Shown piece after piece: positions 887-9,862 of a DNA stretch of 32,395 bases (positions are counted from its first letter, which is position 1; every line of letters begins with the position of its first letter). The stretch is from Armatimonadota bacterium (lineage in GTDB: Bacteria > Sysuimicrobiota > Sysuimicrobiia > Sysuimicrobiales > Humicultoraceae): the NCBI GenBank assembly GCA_031459715.1, contig JAVKIA010000001.1:112429-144823 (forward strand), written 5' to 3'. The notes beneath the pieces are model-generated. The model was not told where the DNA came from. It searched no databases and saw nothing but the letters and a program-made list of their open reading frames with translations. The position numbers and the translations under genes were made by a program.

Positions 887-1597
887 CTACAGGTATCGTT
901 CACAGACATTGGCCCTGATGGCCTCCGGATCCGAGATCTCAGCGACAATGTGCCCCTCCCTGACGGCGTAGACCTTGTCGGATATGGCCGAGACCAGCGG
1001 CAGGTTCTGCTCGACAATGACCAGGGTGGTGGTCTTGCTCAGCTCCCTGAGCACTTCCTTCAGGTGGTCGACCAGGCTGGGGGCCAGGCCCTCGGTGGGC
1101 TCGTCGATAAGCAGCAGGCTGGGGCGCCCCAGCAGCGCCCGCCCGATCATCAGCATCTGCCGCTCCCCTCCGCTGAGGTAGCCTCCCTTGTGATCCAGCA
1201 GCTGCTTCAGCCGGGGAAAGTGCGCGAACACGGGTTCCCAGTCGTAGTCCCCAGTGGCGTAGCTGGCCAGCTCCAGGTTCTCCCGCACCGTCAGGTCGGA
1301 GAAGACGCGCTTGTCCTGGGGGACGTACTTTAGCCCCATCCGGGCGATCTGGTAAGGCCGCAGACCGATGAGGTTGGTTCCGTTGAAGACGACGGAGCCG
1401 GAGGTAGGGCGGAGGAAGCCAGCGATGGTCCGCAGAAGGGTGGTTTTTCCGGCCCCGTTGCGGCCCACGCAGGTGACCAGCTGGCCCCGACGTACGGAGA
1501 TGTGGGCGTCGAACAGCACCCTGGACTCCCCGTAAGCCACGTGCAGCCCCTCCACCACCAGGATCTCGCCGTCCCGGGCTGTCACCTTGCCCTCCAT
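887..1597 (-). CDS. livF: Branched-chain amino acid-type ABC transporter ATP-binding protein LivF
   Basis: Cytoplasmic ATPase that, with LivG, powers uptake through the LivM permease. The 236-residue length is normal for LivF. Visible motifs are Walker A GRNGAGKTT (about residues 45-53), a YVPQDKRVFSDLTVREN segment matching the LivF Q-loop region, the ABC signature LSGGERQ, Walker B LLLIDEPTEGLAP and the switch histidine region replaced by VIVEQN, as is usual in LivF. The frame stays open upstream to 1795, but that extension lies inside livG and reads as arginine/serine-rich shadow sequence. The ATG at 1597, 4 nt after the livG stop codon, is therefore the start. The gene is co-transcribed with livG and is followed by livM after 81 nt. 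Confidence 0.95.
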   Translation of the reverse strand: MEGKVTARDGEILVVEGLHVAYGESRVLFDAHISVRRGQLVTCVGRNGAGKTTLLRTIAGFLRPTSGSVVFNGTNLIGLRPYQIARMGLKYVPQDKRVFSDLTVRENLELASYATGDYDWEPVFAHFPRLKQLLDHKGGYLSGGERQMLMIGRALLGRPSLLLIDEPTEGLAPSLVDHLKEVLRELSKTTTLVIVEQNLPLVSAISDKVYAVREGHIVAEISDPEAIRANVCERYL

Positions 1598-1601
1598 GAG
1601 C

Positions 1602-2402
1602 TCAGCTGGCGCCGACCCCGATCTGCCAGTAGCTGCGGCGGACCTCTGGATCGCGCAGGGTCTCTTCGAAGTTGCCGTCCGCGATGATCCTGCCGTCGTG
1701 CATGACCGTGAGCCGCTGTACGAAGTCAGCGATCTGGGAAACCTTGTGCTCCACGATGAGGATGGTCTGGCGGCCCACGTGCCTGCGCAGCACATCCAGG
1801 ACGCTCTTGATCTCCGCCTGGCTCAGGCCGGCCAGGGGCTCGTCCAGCAGGAGCACCTGTGGCTCGGTGAGCACGGCCATGGCGATCTCCAGGCGCCTCT
1901 TCTCCCCCAGGCTGAGGTGACGTACCAGGCGGTCACGCACATGCTGCAGCTCGAAGACCTCCAGGGCTTCCAGGATCTTCTCCTCCTGGCGGTATCTCCG
2001 GCGGGCTGTCAGGACCATGGAGAACAGCGAGGGCCGGCAGTACGCACGGTAGAAGGCCAGCACCAGGTTGTCGATGGTGGTCAGGTTGTCGAAGGTTGAT
2101 GTGAGCTGGAACGTCCGCATCATCCCCATCTCGATCCGCCGCTGGGGCGTGGCGTGGGTGATGTTCTCCCCACGGTAGAAGATCGTCCCTTCGTCGGGCG
2201 GGTAGTAGCCGGTGAGGAGGTTGAACAGGGTGGTCTTGCCGGCGCCATTGGAGCCGACGATCCCCGCCACCTCGTACTCCCGCAGCGTGTAGGTTACCCG
2301 GTCGACGGCCACAAGCTGCCCGAAGCGTTTGGTGACGTTGACGGCCCGAACGATCTCCGCGCCAGCCGGTGCCGCGGCCTCTGCGGAGCCCGCACCCACC
2401 AT
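1602..2402 (-). CDS. livG: Branched-chain amino acid-type ABC transporter ATP-binding protein LivG
   Basis: Second cytoplasmic ATPase of the Liv importer. The 266 residues include Walker A GSNGAGKTT (residues 50-58), the typical LivG stretch MGMMRTFQLTSTFDNLTTIDN, the signature HLSLGEKRRLEIA, Walker B VLLLDEPLAGLS, and VEHK as switch region. The signature reads LSLGE rather than LSGGE, a variation seen in some LivG proteins. About 15 alanine-rich residues precede the conserved core. The start ATG at 2402 lies 168 nt downstream of the binding-protein gene, and that gap holds a strong hairpin. The stop codon is 4 nt from the livF start, indicating translational coupling. Confidence 0.95.
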   Translation of the reverse strand: MVGAGSAEAAAPAGAEIVRAVNVTKRFGQLVAVDRVTYTLREYEVAGIVGSNGAGKTTLFNLLTGYYPPDEGTIFYRGENITHATPQRRIEMGMMRTFQLTSTFDNLTTIDNLVLAFYRAYCRPSLFSMVLTARRRYRQEEKILEALEVFELQHVRDRLVRHLSLGEKRRLEIAMAVLTEPQVLLLDEPLAGLSQAEIKSVLDVLRRHVGRQTILIVEHKVSQIADFVQRLTVMHDGRIIADGNFEETLRDPEVRRSYWQIGVGAS

Positions 2403-2570: not shown

Positions 2571-3812
2571 TCAGTAGCCCAGCGACTGCAGGGTGGGCAT
2601 GACCCCCTCGCCCCCCTGATAGCCCAGGACCTTGAAGAGGTCCCAGGCGTGCTTCTGCTCGCCGGGGCCCTTGCCCCTGACCAGAAAGGCAGCGAACTGG
2701 TAGATTGGCGCGTGGTCCTGCCGCCAGCGGGCGGGTCCCTTCACCGTGGTGAACTGGGGCTTGGCCATCAGCGCTGCGCCTACGGCCTTGGGCTCGAAAG
2801 AGCCCGCAGTCTCGAAGCCGCGGAACATTTCCCGGAAGGCGGTGTAGGCGATGGTGGCGTAGGCGTCCGCCGGCGTCCCGTACTTGGCCTGGTACAGCTG
2901 GCTAAAGGCGCTGGCGCTCTTGGCTACCCCCGTCGGCCCCAGGTCGCTCAGGTCGTAGTAGAAGTAGTGCATGGCGTAGACGCCGTCCAGGGCCTCGGGA
3001 GGAATGCCCTTGGCCACCACGTTGGTGATAAAGGCGTTGAAGATGGTCATCTCCCGGTTCAGGCCCATCTGGTGGGTCTGCTTCAGGAGGGCCACCGCGT
3101 CGGCAGCAAACTGCGCCGAGATGAAGACGTCCGGCCTGGCCGCCCGCACCTTCGTCAGCACCGTGGTGAAGTCCGTGGTCCCCAGGGGGACCTCGTCGTA
3201 GCCCACCACCTCAGCGCCGTGCTGCTTGGCGGCAGCATAGACTCCGTCACGGATGTCCCAGCCCCAGCTGTCAGCGCGGGCCAGGAAGAAGATGCGCTTC
3301 TTCCCCAGCACCTTGATGGCCGAGGTGCCGGACATGTATCCCACCGTCCAGGGGCTGTAGGCCACGGCAAAGGTGGTGGGGGAGAGCTTCCCCTTCTCGA
3401 AGGCCTCCTTGGCCATGACGCAGGTGGGGAAGTACGGCAGAGGCTCCTTCATCACCACGGCGTTGAGGGCGTAGGCCAGCGGGGCCCACGTCTGCCCACC
3501 CACGCCTTTGACGCCCTCGGAGACCAGGTAGCGGAAGCGGCGGACTCCGACGTCCAGCTTGGCCTCGTCGTCGGCCACCACCCCTTCCACCTGCACCTTT
3601 CCCCAGGGCATGTTCAGCCCGCCTTTTCCGTTGATCACGTCGATGGCTAGCAGCGCGCCGTTCTTCTGCGTCTCGGCCACCGCGGCGAACGGTCCGGTGA
3701 GCGGCAGCAGGATGCCCACCTTGATCTTGCTGGGTTGGGCCGGCCCCGCATTGGCTGGAGCCAGAGCCACGGACAGGGTGAAGAGGAGCAGCAGAACCAG
3801 CCACTTTCTCAT
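2571..3812 (-). CDS. Periplasmic substrate-binding protein of a Liv-type ABC transporter
   Basis: Captures the substrate outside the inner membrane and delivers it to the LivM-type permease. The first ~23 residues form a Sec signal peptide (MRKW, a leucine-rich core, then PANA as a likely cleavage site). No lipobox cysteine is seen, so the mature protein should be soluble in a periplasm, which hints at a diderm cell. The body is a type I periplasmic binding fold: IKVGILLPLTGPFAAVAE near the N-terminus, then ADDEAK, then a second-lobe stretch with ARADSWGWDIRDGV. The start chosen is ATG at 3812, because GGGAGGGG sits about 8 nt upstream. An ATG at 3818 is in frame but abuts that ribosome binding site. 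First gene of the operon, transcribed away from the molybdenum hydroxylase. Substrate unknown: these proteins bind branched amino acids, amides, aromatic acids or purine-like compounds. Confidence 0.92.
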   Translation of the reverse strand: MRKWLVLLLLFTLSVALAPANAGPAQPSKIKVGILLPLTGPFAAVAETQKNGALLAIDVINGKGGLNMPWGKVQVEGVVADDEAKLDVGVRRFRYLVSEGVKGVGGQTWAPLAYALNAVVMKEPLPYFPTCVMAKEAFEKGKLSPTTFAVAYSPWTVGYMSGTSAIKVLGKKRIFFLARADSWGWDIRDGVYAAAKQHGAEVVGYDEVPLGTTDFTTVLTKVRAARPDVFISAQFAADAVALLKQTHQMGLNREMTIFNAFITNVVAKGIPPEALDGVYAMHYFYYDLSDLGPTGVAKSASAFSQLYQAKYGTPADAYATIAYTAFREMFRGFETAGSFEPKAVGAALMAKPQFTTVKGPARWRQDHAPIYQFAAFLVRGKGPGEQKHAWDLFKVLGYQGGEGVMPTLQSLGY

Positions 3813-3818
3813 CGCCAT

Positions 3819-4021
3819 CCCCTCCCATCCAACGACCTACTCGGACTGCCCCGCGCACCGGTCGGCTCGGGCATTGAGCCCGTGCGACCGCACGGCCTGG
3901 ATCCTCCGCGCCAGTGAAGGAAGGAGGAGCCCCACCCCGAATCGGTTGTTTGGATACATTATCCAATATCCCTTTTTAACCGGCCAGGCTGGTAATTCCT
4001 TCTGCCCTGGAGGAGGCGCCA
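3819..4021. promoter_or_regulatory. Divergent control region between the Liv importer and the molybdenum hydroxylase
   Basis: This 203-nt gap must hold promoters for both flanking operons. The half nearest the hydroxylase (3945-3976) is clearly more AT-rich than its surroundings and contains a perfect palindrome. Possible -10 hexamers overlap the palindrome on both strands (TACATT on plus, GATAAT on minus), but no convincing -35 was found. The half nearest the Liv genes has two overlapping GC-rich stems: CGGGC 3868-3872 with GCCCG 3878-3882, and CCGTGC 3880-3885 with GCACGG 3890-3895. They would lie in the Liv mRNA leader. GGAGGAGG at 4009-4016 is the ribosome binding site for the FAD subunit gene. 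Confidence 0.6.
3950..3966. promoter_or_regulatory. Palindromic operator-like site
   Basis: TTGGATA and TATCCAA form a perfect 7-bp inverted repeat separated by CAT, inside the only AT-rich patch of the divergent gap. The size and symmetry are those of a site for a dimeric repressor such as GntR- or TetR-type regulators. No regulator gene is in the window, so which protein binds is unknown. Its place between two divergent operons would allow one regulator to control both. Confidence 0.6.
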
Positions 4022-4903
4022 GTGAAGCCGCCCCGATACATCGCTGCCTCGACGGTCGCCGAAGCCTCCACCATCCTGACGGCGGAGGAGGGGGCGCACG
4101 TGTTGGCAGGGGGCACCGACCTCGTGGTGCGCATGCGCGATGGCCTGGTGCGGCCAGCAGCGCTGGTGGACATCGAGCGTATCCCCGACCTGGCGGCCAT
4201 TGACAGCGTCGACGGCCACCTGCGCATCGGGGCCACGGCAACCATCGCCGCGTTACTGGAATCACCGCTGGTCCGCCGCCTGGCGCCGCTGCTGGCCGAG
4301 GCCGGCGCCCAGATGGGCGCGGTGCAGCTGCGCAACCTGGCCACGGTGGGAGGCAACCTGGCCAGCGCCGTCCCCTCCGCCGATCTGGCCCCTCCGCTCA
4401 TCGCCCTGGGAGCGGTGGCGCGGATCGCCGCAGTGGGGAGAGAGCGGACGCTGCCTGTGGAGGAGTTCTTCGTGGGGCCGCACCGCAGCGCGCTGCGCCG
4501 CGGCGAGGTGCTCACCGCCGTGGGCGTGCCTCCGCCGGAGCGAGGAAGTGGAGCGGCCTTTGTCAAGTTCGGCCGGCGTAGCGCCCAGGTCCTGGCCGTG
4601 GTCAACGCAGCGGCCTGGGTACGTCTTCAGCAGGGCGTGGTGGAGGAGGTGCGTATCGCCCTGGGCGCGGTGGCGCCCACACCGCTGCGGGCGCGCACGG
4701 CGGAGGAGCTGCTGCGGGGAGAGCCGCCGGATCCACGCCGTCTGGAGGAAGCGGCCGCTGCGGCGGCGGGAGAGACCAAGCCCATCTCCGACATGCGCGC
4801 CTCCGCGGACTTCCGGCGACATCTCTCCCGGGTGCTGGTGCGCCGCGCCCTGGAGCAAGCTGTGCAACGGGCCCGGAGCAGGGGGTGGGACCGTGTCCTA
4901 TGA
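4022..4903 (+). CDS. Molybdenum hydroxylase, FAD-binding medium subunit (CoxM/CutM/NdhF type)
   Basis: Passes electrons from the Fe-S subunit through FAD to an acceptor. The 293 residues match the ~290 expected for the family. Both FAD pyrophosphate-binding motifs are seen: AGGTDL (residues 29-34) and TVGGN within ATVGGNLASAVPSADLAP (about 107-124), followed by the CO dehydrogenase flavoprotein C-terminal domain. GTG at 4022 is the start, with GGAGGAGG ending 5 nt upstream. The 3' end overlaps the Fe-S subunit gene by 11 nt. First gene of a four-frame operon in the order FAD, Fe-S, catalytic part 1, catalytic part 2. Substrate cannot be read from this subunit. Confidence 0.93.
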   Translation: MKPPRYIAASTVAEASTILTAEEGAHVLAGGTDLVVRMRDGLVRPAALVDIERIPDLAAIDSVDGHLRIGATATIAALLESPLVRRLAPLLAEAGAQMGAVQLRNLATVGGNLASAVPSADLAPPLIALGAVARIAAVGRERTLPVEEFFVGPHRSALRRGEVLTAVGVPPPERGSGAAFVKFGRRSAQVLAVVNAAAWVRLQQGVVEEVRIALGAVAPTPLRARTAEELLRGEPPDPRRLEEAAAAAAGETKPISDMRASADFRRHLSRVLVRRALEQAVQRARSRGWDRVL

Positions 4904-5375
4904 GCTCAGCTTCCGCCTGAACGGCGAGCCCGTCACCACGGCGGTGGAGGCCGACGAGAGCCTGGTCTGGGTGCTGAGGGAGCGCCTGGGGCTCCTGGGG
5001 ACGAAGATCGGCTGCGGCACCGGGGACTGCGGAGCCTGCACGGTCTTGCTGGACGGGCGTCCGGTCTGCAGTTGCCTGCTGCTGGCGGTGAAGGCGCAGG
5101 GGCGGGAGGTGATGACCATCGAAGGGCTCGGCCAGCCCGGCCGCCTGCATCCCCTGCAACAGGCGTTCGTGGACCACGGCGCGCTGCAGTGCGGCTTCTG
5201 CGGTCCGGGCATGCTCCTGTCGGCGGCAGCGCTGCTGGCCCGCAATCCCCGCCCGCGGGAGGAGGCGGTGCGGGAAGCCATCGCCGGCAACCTGTGCCGC
5301 TGTAGCGGTTACGTCAAGATCGTGGAGGCCATCCTGGCCGCCGCGGAAGCGATGACCGGGAGGGAGGCCGTATGA
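4893..5375 (+). CDS. Molybdenum hydroxylase, [2Fe-2S] small subunit (CoxS/CutS/NdhS type)
   Basis: Carries two [2Fe-2S] clusters that link the molybdenum site to FAD. The 160-residue protein has the plant-type ferredoxin cluster ligands C41, C46, C49 and C61 (in GCGTGDCGAC and the following VCSC). The all-helical second domain contributes C100, C103, C135 and C137 (QCGFCGPG and LCRCSGY). A GTG start at 4893 fits the family N-terminus (SYELSFRLNG) and overlaps the FAD gene by 11 nt. The frame continues upstream but there reads as shadow of the FAD gene. The stop codon overlaps the next ATG (ATGA at 5372-5375). All eight ligands are intact, so the enzyme should be able to transfer electrons. 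Confidence 0.95.
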   Translation: MSYELSFRLNGEPVTTAVEADESLVWVLRERLGLLGTKIGCGTGDCGACTVLLDGRPVCSCLLLAVKAQGREVMTIEGLGQPGRLHPLQQAFVDHGALQCGFCGPGMLLSAAALLARNPRPREEAVREAIAGNLCRCSGYVKIVEAILAAAEAMTGREAV

Positions 5376-6679
5376 CGACCATCACCCGGCCCGCGCCGCC
5401 GGTCGTCGTCCAGGAGGTTCCACCTCAGGCCGTGGGGCGGCGTGTCAGCCGGCACGATGCCCTCCTCCAGGTTACCGGCCAGGTCCTTTACGGGGAGGAC
5501 ATGCGGGCCCCCGGGATGCTCTGGGCCAAGGCCGTCCGCAGCCCGCACCCCCACGCCCGCATCATCAGCATCGACCTCCTGCCGGCGCTGACCGCTCCCG
5601 GCGTGCGGGCAGCGATCACGGCCCGGGACGTGCCGCGCAACCGCTACGGGTTCACCCACCAGGACCAGCCTGTGCTGGCGGAGGACCAGGTGCGCCACGT
5701 GGGGGAGGCGGTAGCGGTGGTTGCCGCGGAAACCCTGCGACAGGCGGAGGAGGCGGCCGCCAGGGTGGTGGTGCACTACGAGCCCCTGCTGGCCGTCTTC
5801 GACCCCCTGGAGGCCATGCGCCCCGAGGCCCCTCGGGTGCACCAGGGCAGCAACGTGGCGGAGCACGTGCGCCTCCGCCAGGGGGACGTAGATGCCGGCT
5901 TCGCCGCCGCCGACCTGGTGGTGGAGGAGGAGTTCACCACCACGTTCGTGGAGCACGCGCACCTGGAGCCTCACGCCGGCCTGGCCATTCCCGCCGCCGA
6001 CGGGGCCGTAACCATTTACTCTTCGGTGCAGCGGCCGTTCCTGGTGGCGGCAGACACGGCCAAGGTCCTGGCCATGCCGCAGCACCGCATCCGCGTCATC
6101 GCCACCGGTGTGGGCGGTGGCTTTGGGGGAAAGAACGAGATGACCCTGGAGCCCTGGATTGCCCTCCTGGCCCTGAAGACCCGCCGTCCGGTGAAGATGG
6201 TGTTCACCCGGGAGGAGGAATTCCAGGCAACGACGGTGCGTCACCCTTACCGCATGCACTACCGCACGGGCGTGCGCCGCGACGGCACCCTGCTGGCCCG
6301 GGCGGTAGAGATCATCAGCGACTGCGGCGCCTACGTTTCCTGGGGCGCCTCCACCCTGGCCAAGGCCTCCATCCACGCCGCCGGGCCGTACGCCATCCCC
6401 CACGTGCGGATCGACGGCTACCTGGTGTACACCAACAACCCGGTGGGCGGGGCGATGCGGGGGTTTGGAGTGCCGCAGGTTGGGTTCGCCTACGAGTGCC
6501 ACACCGATGCGGTGGCGGCGGCCGTGGGCATGGATCCCGTCACCTTCCGCCTGCGCAACGCCCTGCGGGACGGCGGGCGCCTGCCCACGGGTCAGGTGCT
6601 GGAGAGGGTGACGCTGGAGCAGACACTGCGGCGAGCGCTGGCGCTGGCGGGGTGGGAACCGGAAGGGAGGGGGCGGTAG
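5372..6679 (+). CDS. Molybdenum hydroxylase catalytic subunit, N-terminal part (NdhL-like half)
   Basis: The 435 residues correspond to the first ~55% of a CoxL/XdhA-type large subunit. They hold the aldehyde oxidase/xanthine dehydrogenase a/b hammerhead domain (about residues 25-145) and the first molybdopterin-binding region, with GVGGGFGGK at 246-254 and the MRGFG loop at 362-366. The CO dehydrogenase active-site loop AYRCSFR is absent, so it is not a form I CO dehydrogenase. The frame ends at TAG 6677-6679, just after the conserved ALAGW segment, where the family normally continues. The missing remainder is encoded immediately downstream in another frame. The start ATG overlaps the Fe-S stop codon. 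It could be a true separate subunit, as in the nicotinate dehydrogenase of Eubacterium barkeri, or one half of a frameshifted gene. Confidence 0.9.
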   Translation: MTTITRPAPPVVVQEVPPQAVGRRVSRHDALLQVTGQVLYGEDMRAPGMLWAKAVRSPHPHARIISIDLLPALTAPGVRAAITARDVPRNRYGFTHQDQPVLAEDQVRHVGEAVAVVAAETLRQAEEAAARVVVHYEPLLAVFDPLEAMRPEAPRVHQGSNVAEHVRLRQGDVDAGFAAADLVVEEEFTTTFVEHAHLEPHAGLAIPAADGAVTIYSSVQRPFLVAADTAKVLAMPQHRIRVIATGVGGGFGGKNEMTLEPWIALLALKTRRPVKMVFTREEEFQATTVRHPYRMHYRTGVRRDGTLLARAVEIISDCGAYVSWGASTLAKASIHAAGPYAIPHVRIDGYLVYTNNPVGGAMRGFGVPQVGFAYECHTDAVAAAVGMDPVTFRLRNALRDGGRLPTGQVLERVTLEQTLRRALALAGWEPEGRGR

Positions 6680-7680
6680 TGCGCAGGCGCGGGCGCGGGG
6701 TCGCCTGGATGGCCTATCCCATTGGCTTCACCTCCTATGCCAACCCCAGTGCCGCGTTCGTCAAGGTGAACCAGGACGGCTCGGCCGTGGTCTGGACCGG
6801 TGCGGCGGATGTGGGGCAGGGCTCCACCACTGCGCTGGCCCAGATTGCGGCGGATGCGCTGGGCGTTCCCCTGGAGCAGGTCACCATGGTCACCAGCGAC
6901 ACGCTGCACACGCCCATGGACCTGGGCTCGGTGGCCAGCCGAGTCACCTACATCGCTGGCAACGCCATCCTGCGGGCCTGCGCCCAGGCCCGGCAGGTCC
7001 TGCTGGAGGTGGCGGCTGAGGAGCTGGGCATCGGCCCGGAGGGGCTGGAGAGCCGCGGCGGGTGGATCCTGGTGCGCGACCTCCCAGAGCGCCGCGTCCG
7101 CCTGGCGGAGATCGCGCGGAAGGCGGAGGCGGTGAAGGGCCGCCCTCCTATCGGCGCCGGTTCTTACAACCCACCGACGACCTTCCTCGATCCGGAGACG
7201 GGGCAGGGCAAGCCCTACAATACATATGTCTACGCCACTCAGGTCGCTGAGGTTGAGGTGGACACCGAGACCGGTGAGGTGCGGGTGCTTCGGCTTGTCG
7301 CCGTGCACGACTGCGGGCGCGCCGTCAACCCCCTGCTGGTGGAGGGGCAGATCCAGGGCGGCATGGCCATGGGCATGGGCTATGCCCTCAGCGAGGAGAT
7401 GGCGGTCCAGGAGGGGCAGGTGCTCAACACCAAGTTCGCCGACTACCTGATCCCCACCGCCATGGACGTTCCTCCCCTGGTGGTGGACCTGGTGGAGGCG
7501 CCGGATCCCAGCGGGCCTTTTGGCGCCAAAGGGGTGGGGGAACCCGCGCTGCTGCCCACGGCGCCGGCCATCGTCAACGCCATCTACGACGCGGTGGGAG
7601 TACGCATCCGCGAGCTCCCCGTGACCGCGCAGCGTGTTCTGGCTGCACTGCGGGCGCAGGAGACCTCTGCCGCAGACTGA
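6679..7680 (+). CDS. Molybdenum hydroxylase catalytic subunit, C-terminal part (NdhM-like half)
   Basis: The 333 residues supply the second molybdopterin-binding domain of the catalytic subunit. It begins at the family's usual RRRGRGVAWMAYPIG segment and has ADVGQGSTT (about residues 43-51), which contacts the cofactor. Near the end comes GPFGAKGVGEPALLP, whose glutamate (about residue 288) is the expected catalytic base. A GTG start at 6679 shares its first base with the TAG of the upstream half. A G-rich ribosome-binding-like stretch (GGAAGGGAGGGGG, 6661-6673) lies just before it. The same TAGTG junction occurs between nuoB and nuoC here. The frame is open back to 6496, but that part is shadow. 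Either a coupled separate gene or the product of a 1-nt indel in the run of five Gs at 6669-6673. Confidence 0.88.
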   Translation: MRRRGRGVAWMAYPIGFTSYANPSAAFVKVNQDGSAVVWTGAADVGQGSTTALAQIAADALGVPLEQVTMVTSDTLHTPMDLGSVASRVTYIAGNAILRACAQARQVLLEVAAEELGIGPEGLESRGGWILVRDLPERRVRLAEIARKAEAVKGRPPIGAGSYNPPTTFLDPETGQGKPYNTYVYATQVAEVEVDTETGEVRVLRLVAVHDCGRAVNPLLVEGQIQGGMAMGMGYALSEEMAVQEGQVLNTKFADYLIPTAMDVPPLVVDLVEAPDPSGPFGAKGVGEPALLPTAPAIVNAIYDAVGVRIRELPVTAQRVLAALRAQETSAAD

Positions 7681-9786: not shown

Positions 9787-9862
9787 TGGTGCCGGGGGAC
9801 GGAATCGAACCGCCGACGCCGGGCTCTTCAGGCCCGCGCTCTACCAACTGAGCTACCCCGGC
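9787..9862 (-). tRNA. tRNA-Phe (anticodon GAA)
   Basis: A 76-nt cloverleaf including an encoded CCA end. The acceptor stem is GCCGGGG (9862-9856) paired with CCCCGGC, with discriminator A and CCA at 9789-9787. The D arm has AGCTCAGTTGGTAGAGC. The anticodon stem CGGGC/GCCCG closes the loop CTGAAGA, so the anticodon is GAA. The T arm GGCGG-TTCGATT-CCGTC has one G-U pair. Upstream promoter elements are visible at 9872-9901. It stands alone, not in a tRNA cluster. Confidence 0.95.

Follow-up and report, generated by a model that had tools for sequence, protein, structure and literature searches.

Regulators of the FCD (FadR) subfamily of the GntR family offer the closest described counterparts to the locus considered here. 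The operator of VanR, one of their number, has the sequence ATTGGATCCAAT; a literature search for a VanR/GntR operator of that sequence returned no match. For the subfamily at large, the available part of Suvorova et al. (2015, PMC4494728) describes operators made of TKGT and ACMA boxes in which GT and AC are 2-3 nt apart, reports extra half-sites at 7-12 nt from the centre of the site, and states that where a divergon has a single site, that site usually serves both operons. Excerpts of the reports on three individual repressors give a more particular picture. Atu1419 of Agrobacterium fabrum, from the VanR group, has the 10-mer operator ATGTATACAT over a -10 box; the third position of that operator, a G, is recognised by an arginine of helix alpha3 (PMC7797058). 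AlkR of Pseudomonas aeruginosa, also of the VanR group, represses a hydroxylating enzyme from ATTGTCAGACAAT, a palindromic site over the -10 region with half-sites 1 nt apart (PMC12042122). NanR of E. coli is an FCD repressor with GGTATA boxes arranged as three direct repeats (PMC8012715).

The divergent gap and its palindrome

The window, by which we mean the whole 32,395-nt stretch of DNA analysed (C1:112429-144823 of its own genome, G000), contains a divergent gap between the genes of a Liv-type importer and those of a molybdenum hydroxylase. The features are as follows.

887-1795, minus strand: LivF-type Liv ATPase (PF00005), whose true start is probably internal to the ORF
1602-2402, minus strand: LivG-type Liv ATPase (PF00005), 77% identical to its G020 counterpart
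2571-3818, minus strand: Liv-type periplasmic binding protein (PF13458, E 1.3e-62), first gene of the importer operon
3819-4021, no strand: divergent intergenic gap, 203 bp
3950-3966, no strand: core palindrome, putative operator of a GntR/FCD regulator, identical in G020
3950-3971, plus strand: conserved block TTGGATACATTATCCAATATCC, made up of the core palindrome and a third box, ATATCC, with 22-bp identity to the G020 gap
4022-4903, plus strand: molybdenum hydroxylase FAD subunit (PF00941, PF03450), first gene of its operon
4893-5375, plus strand: hydroxylase [2Fe-2S] subunit (Fer2/Fer2_2 in the ORF 4140-5375; NCBIfam iron-sulfur subunit models)
5372-6679, plus strand: first half of the molybdopterin subunit, NdhL-like (PF02738, PF01315; 3hrd_A, E 1.7e-101)
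6628-7680, plus strand: second half of the molybdopterin subunit, NdhM-like, in an ORF of its own (PF20256 in the ORF 6496-7680; 3hrd_B, E 6.1e-92)

The molybdopterin subunit is thus encoded by two overlapping ORFs (5372-7680, plus strand), a split also present in G020 and G014, and the best PDB matches of its halves are the large (3hrd_A) and medium (3hrd_B) subunits of nicotinate dehydrogenase. Like the hydroxylase here, that enzyme (3HRD) has an FAD subunit, a [2Fe-2S] subunit and a molybdopterin subunit in two polypeptides (chains A and B), whereas the FAD subunit here is better matched by other hydroxylases. No hydroxylase subunit reaches an NCBIfam equivalog cut-off in a search of the NCBIfam models. 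By its sequence, the hydroxylase is a predicted relative of nicotinate dehydrogenase; nicotinate and other N-heterocycles were considered as candidate substrates. The window also carries a tRNA-Phe (GAA) gene at 9787-9862 on the minus strand.

The first-pass annotation had drawn attention to a perfect palindrome in an AT-rich patch of this gap, flanked by the importer and hydroxylase genes, and each of these observations holds in the sequence. TTGGATACATTATCCAA (TTGGATA-CAT-TATCCAA) at 3950-3966 is a perfect 7-bp inverted repeat with the spacer CAT; the 30-bp windows from 3939 and 3949 have GC contents of 33% and 27%, against 63% for the gap as a whole; and the neighbours are a minus-strand Peripla_BP_6 Liv binding-protein gene and a plus-strand CoxM-type FAD-subunit gene. 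The further claim, that the palindrome overlaps possible -10 elements on both strands, fared poorly, as no sigma-70-like promoter with at least 9/12 matches is present in 3810-4040 of G000; none is present in the G020 gap either. A second inverted repeat, AGCCCGTGCG-AC-CGCACGGCCT, with one mismatch, lies on the liv side of the gap at 3877-3898. The possibility of a structured RNA in the Liv leader was rejected, since the leader folds no better than its shuffles (z-score -0.42).

Palindromicity alone is unremarkable here: among 1000 dinucleotide shuffles of the gap (spacer 0-8), 124 reach perfect arms of at least 7 bp, and we therefore rejected the bare palindrome as evidence. What stands out is the conservation of the sequence. 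The comparison set comprised 43 genomes of the phylum, all from one order. At up to two mismatches the arms occur at a single place in the 2.76-Mb G000 genome, and exact arms are found in 2 of the 43 genomes, namely G000 and G020, the latter from another family. Both exact sites lie in the gap between a Liv binding-protein gene and a hydroxylase FAD-subunit gene, so that the site is kept between the two operons, and the earlier suggestion of looking for it before the same gene pair in relatives is rewarded. The G000 and G020 gaps are identical over 22/22 bp of TTGGATACATTATCCAATATCC and have otherwise diverged, the next-longest same-strand stretch in common being 8 bp and the maximum among 1000 shuffles 14 bp. 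The distance from the site to the hydroxylase start is 55 bp in G000 and 53 bp in G020, and that to the liv binding-protein start 131 bp and 249 bp, respectively. G001, the only same-genus genome compared, has neither the site nor an equally close hydroxylase. Outside the phylum, sites with one mismatch were found in 7 of 18 genomes. A wider contig scan gave two loci, one of which was judged to be the G014 contig (L036), while the other is just 44% identical. In G014 the hydroxylase and liv genes are not divergent, yet a related site precedes the hydroxylase.

A candidate GntR/FCD regulator and copies of its putative operator

The G014 locus runs in one direction through the hydroxylase, the binding protein, livGFMH-type genes, a GntR/FCD regulator and a 2-hydroxyacid dehydrogenase. 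Orthologs of this regulator (P0001), 60-66% identical to it, are present in at least six further genomes among the matches listed for the 43 searched (G000, G020, G024, G027, G033 and G035). The first-pass annotation had proposed a search for a GntR-type gene near the site in related genomes, and such a gene lies directly 3' of livH in both G020 and G014; in G020 the two genes share 4 bp at the end of livH, and the regulator gene sits inside the divergent liv operon. In G000 the ortholog occupies C1:186530-187186, at a distance of 70 kb from the palindrome, and none of the nine FCD places of that genome falls within C1:112429-144823, which agrees, as to FCD genes, with the earlier statement that the window holds no regulator.

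The candidate belongs to the FCD (FadR) subfamily of the GntR family. The protein at L099:8522-9229 exceeds the Pfam cut-offs for the GntR winged helix-turn-helix (PF00392, 59.3 bits against 27) and for FCD (PF07729, 94.5 bits against 24.3), and those at L032:5083-5790 and L033:2025-2714 likewise carry both domains. The recognition-helix motif SRxPVREAL appears as VSRIPVREAL in G000, G020 and G014 and as VSRIPVREGL in G035. In G027, G033 and G024 (the last taken from the protein alignment) it reads VSHIPVREAL, with His for Arg. We infer, from the motif rather than from an alignment, that this arginine corresponds to Arg45 of Atu1419.

Downstream of gntR, either immediately or with a few genes in between, and within reach of the contigs and stretches compared, are genes for a 2-hydroxyacid dehydrogenase, an enzyme resembling HMGL/isopropylmalate synthase, an amidohydrolase and an M24 hydrolase. 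The gntR operon of G000 C1 (L099:8522-13804) is kept in several genomes of the order, and the transporters beside it differ.

Copies of the window site are found at this gene. TTGTATAGAAGATACAATATAC stands just before the gntR start codon of G000 as the sole other match in that genome, and has the layout of the block at 3950-3971, TTGKAT-N5-ATMCAATATMC. This pattern was derived from G000's two sites, and its two exact matches there are therefore circular. Allowing up to two mismatches, it occurs at nine places in the 43 genomes: two in G000 and one in G020, all exact, and six with two mismatches in five genomes. A non-circular test used the window's own half-sites, with no spacer and up to three mismatches, on five genomes; of its 16 places, exactly two are in G000, namely the window site and the one 5' of gntR. 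Among the loci of the nine G000 FCD places, the best match is 14/17 at the gntR ortholog and at most 11/17 at the other eight. G020 has only one operator place in its genome. In G014 the palindrome ATATTGTAT-N6-ATATAATAT lies 5' of the hydroxylase and again 5' of gntR; with up to three mismatches allowed, the genome has no other copy. Each of the two overlaps the TATAAT in a promoter-like sequence that has 10/12 matches. All three genomes with the gene set therefore have a shared palindrome at the relevant operons, at one place in G020 and two each in G000 and G014. An operator copy at the regulator's own gene, as autoregulation would have it, is present in G000 and G014, and in G020 by way of the liv operon. 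No recognisable sigma-70 promoter was found 5' of gntR in G000.

The operator varies among the orthologs: that of G014 has one extra spacer base, and a different palindrome, GTATATRCTATARCATATC, lies 5' of gntR in all three of G024, G027 and G033. G033 has a TTGACA-17-TAACAT promoter here, and the palindrome overlaps its -10 box; G024 has one further place, with three mismatches. The three VSHIPVREAL orthologs (L100:9394-10104, L103:3701-4414 and L101:9764-10408) have this compact palindrome 5' of gntR instead of the wider one. Among more distant homologs, that of G346 (50%) has TTGGATACAAAGGATACAG 5' of the gene, with a layout related but not equal; that of G300 (46%) has no evident operator copy; and the upstream DNA of the G016 homolog (52%) and of a second G014 copy (53%) is related without matching.

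Similar palindromes are also found near other GntR genes. Palindromes with two mismatches number 26 places, 15 of which were examined by locus; ten of these lie inside called genes and five are intergenic, and two of the five stand 24 and 39 bp 5' of other GntR/FCD genes (G007 and G008).

L039 (G007), 1501-1517: palindrome before another GntR/FCD gene
L040 (G008), 1501-1517: palindrome before another GntR/FCD gene

Among the matches listed, a by-eye comparison of coordinates saw none of the other 11 places adjoining an FCD gene. In G012, a two-mismatch place of the pattern lies about 50 bp 5' of an ORF with a GntR domain and no FCD match; the ORF is seemingly broken. Judging by G007 and G008, the wide-spaced layout could be a general feature of the phylum.

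Geometry of the putative operator against described systems

As far as the available part of Suvorova et al. (PMC4494728) describes FadR/FCD divergons, they share with the present case an FCD regulator, an AT-rich palindrome with TTGK/MCAA-like boxes, a single site between divergent operons, a site of the regulator's own and an additional half-site. The spacing differs from theirs: the GT/AC pairs of TTGGATACATTATCCAA and of TTGTATAGAAGATACAA are 9 nt apart rather than 2-3, the third box lies 7 bp past the second, and the site is nearer to the hydroxylase start than to mid-gap. A degenerate canonical 10-mer, TTGGATACAT, does sit inside the site at 3950-3959, and agrees with the operator ATGTATACAT of Atu1419 in 8/10 letters; compared with Atu1419 as the excerpt describes it (PMC7797058), however, the unit conserved here extends over more bases (22 bp) and has its centre of symmetry elsewhere, and TTGTATAGAA, 5' of gntR, is without the C of the second box. 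A classical VanR 10-mer throughout was dropped as a description of the operator, given that the gntR copy is without the second box. AlkR, in the excerpted report (PMC12042122), resembles the present case as an FCD repressor of a hydroxylating enzyme, and is unlike it in its 1-nt half-site spacing and in having no importer in the pair. GGATA boxes recur here (GGATATTGGATA, minus strand), recalling those of NanR, except that the three direct repeats in the excerpt on NanR (PMC8012715) are replaced by two facing boxes followed by a third. Literature searches for a GntR/FCD operator with TTGTATACAA, and for a GntR regulator of nicotinate dehydrogenase together with an ABC transporter, returned no match, and broader ones brought up papers at the level of the family or on unrelated matters.

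Tentatively, and with some doubt, we suggest that this clade of regulators may use an operator geometry of its own, in which 5 bp separate two facing TTGKAT boxes, a third box follows 7 bp on, and more than one dimer may bind, and that the Arg to His change in a sub-clade may go with the switch to the compact palindrome.

Readings of the site

We consider it probable, on these comparisons of sequence, that the palindrome is the operator of an autoregulated GntR repressor of the FCD subfamily which would co-control the hydroxylase, the importer and the catabolic operon. A dimer of the regulator, or more than one, would bind the block and obstruct the hydroxylase promoter, and the same bound dimer would probably obstruct the divergent liv promoter; the regulator would also block its own promoter. 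A catabolite would then release it, such that importer, hydroxylase and gntR operon would be induced together. Repression is favoured over activation because G014 and G033 each have a good sigma-70-like promoter whose -10 box is overlapped by the palindrome. The first-pass proposal of one regulator for both transporter and enzyme thus gains support in unequal measure: there is good support for the predicted control on the hydroxylase side, while control of the liv side is plausible, and is less sure because 131 bp in G000 and 249 bp in G020 separate the site from the liv start. The usual service of both operons by single divergon sites, as the available part of PMC4494728 has it, supports control of liv without proving it.

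It is the liv side that the strongest alternative disputes. The same GntR/FCD operator could act on the hydroxylase promoter only, with the liv promoter elsewhere in the gap, and the near-constant distance to the hydroxylase (55 and 53 bp) beside an inconstant one to liv (131 and 249 bp) fits this reading, as does G014, where the operator is 5' of the hydroxylase and liv lies downstream on the same strand. We nevertheless think it unlikely. In G020 the liv operon carries gntR after livH, and the genome has no second operator place. For the regulator to control itself there, as is suggested for G000 and G014, the site would have to act on liv; the tendency of FadR-subfamily divergon sites to serve both operons, in the available text of PMC4494728, weighs the same way.

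Still less probable, to the point where we would be surprised by it, is that the site belongs to another transcription factor, one with both gntR and the hydroxylase-liv genes under its control, and that GntR acts elsewhere. The departure of the box spacing from the FadR-subfamily pattern, as published in the available part of PMC4494728, speaks for such a factor, but the motif tracks the regulator, being 5' of gntR in G000 and G014 and at a controlled operon containing gntR in G020; similar palindromes precede other GntR/FCD genes in G007 and G008, and the change from VSRIPVREAL to VSHIPVREAL (G024, G027 and G033) goes with a different palindrome. A chance palindrome or plain promoter element with no dedicated regulator, for which the 124 equally palindromic shuffles might speak, is very improbable in the face of the 22-bp conservation across families, the second copy 5' of gntR in G000 and the one near-identical palindrome at two G014 operons.

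The autoregulated GntR/FCD repressor would thus exert control of a known kind, and what is new is the example itself and the off-consensus layout of its operator. For a little-studied lineage, and from sequence alone, the analysis provides a molybdenum hydroxylase and its importer with a candidate regulator, regulon and operator. The arrangement in G000 suggests that a regulator and its target can part by 70 kb with operator copies still tying them together, and the conserved enzymes of the gntR operon are leads to the substrate. The orthologs with different palindromes form a small test set for GntR recognition, and if the Arg to His change does go with the switch of palindrome, the group would form a natural series in which to follow changes of GntR operators.
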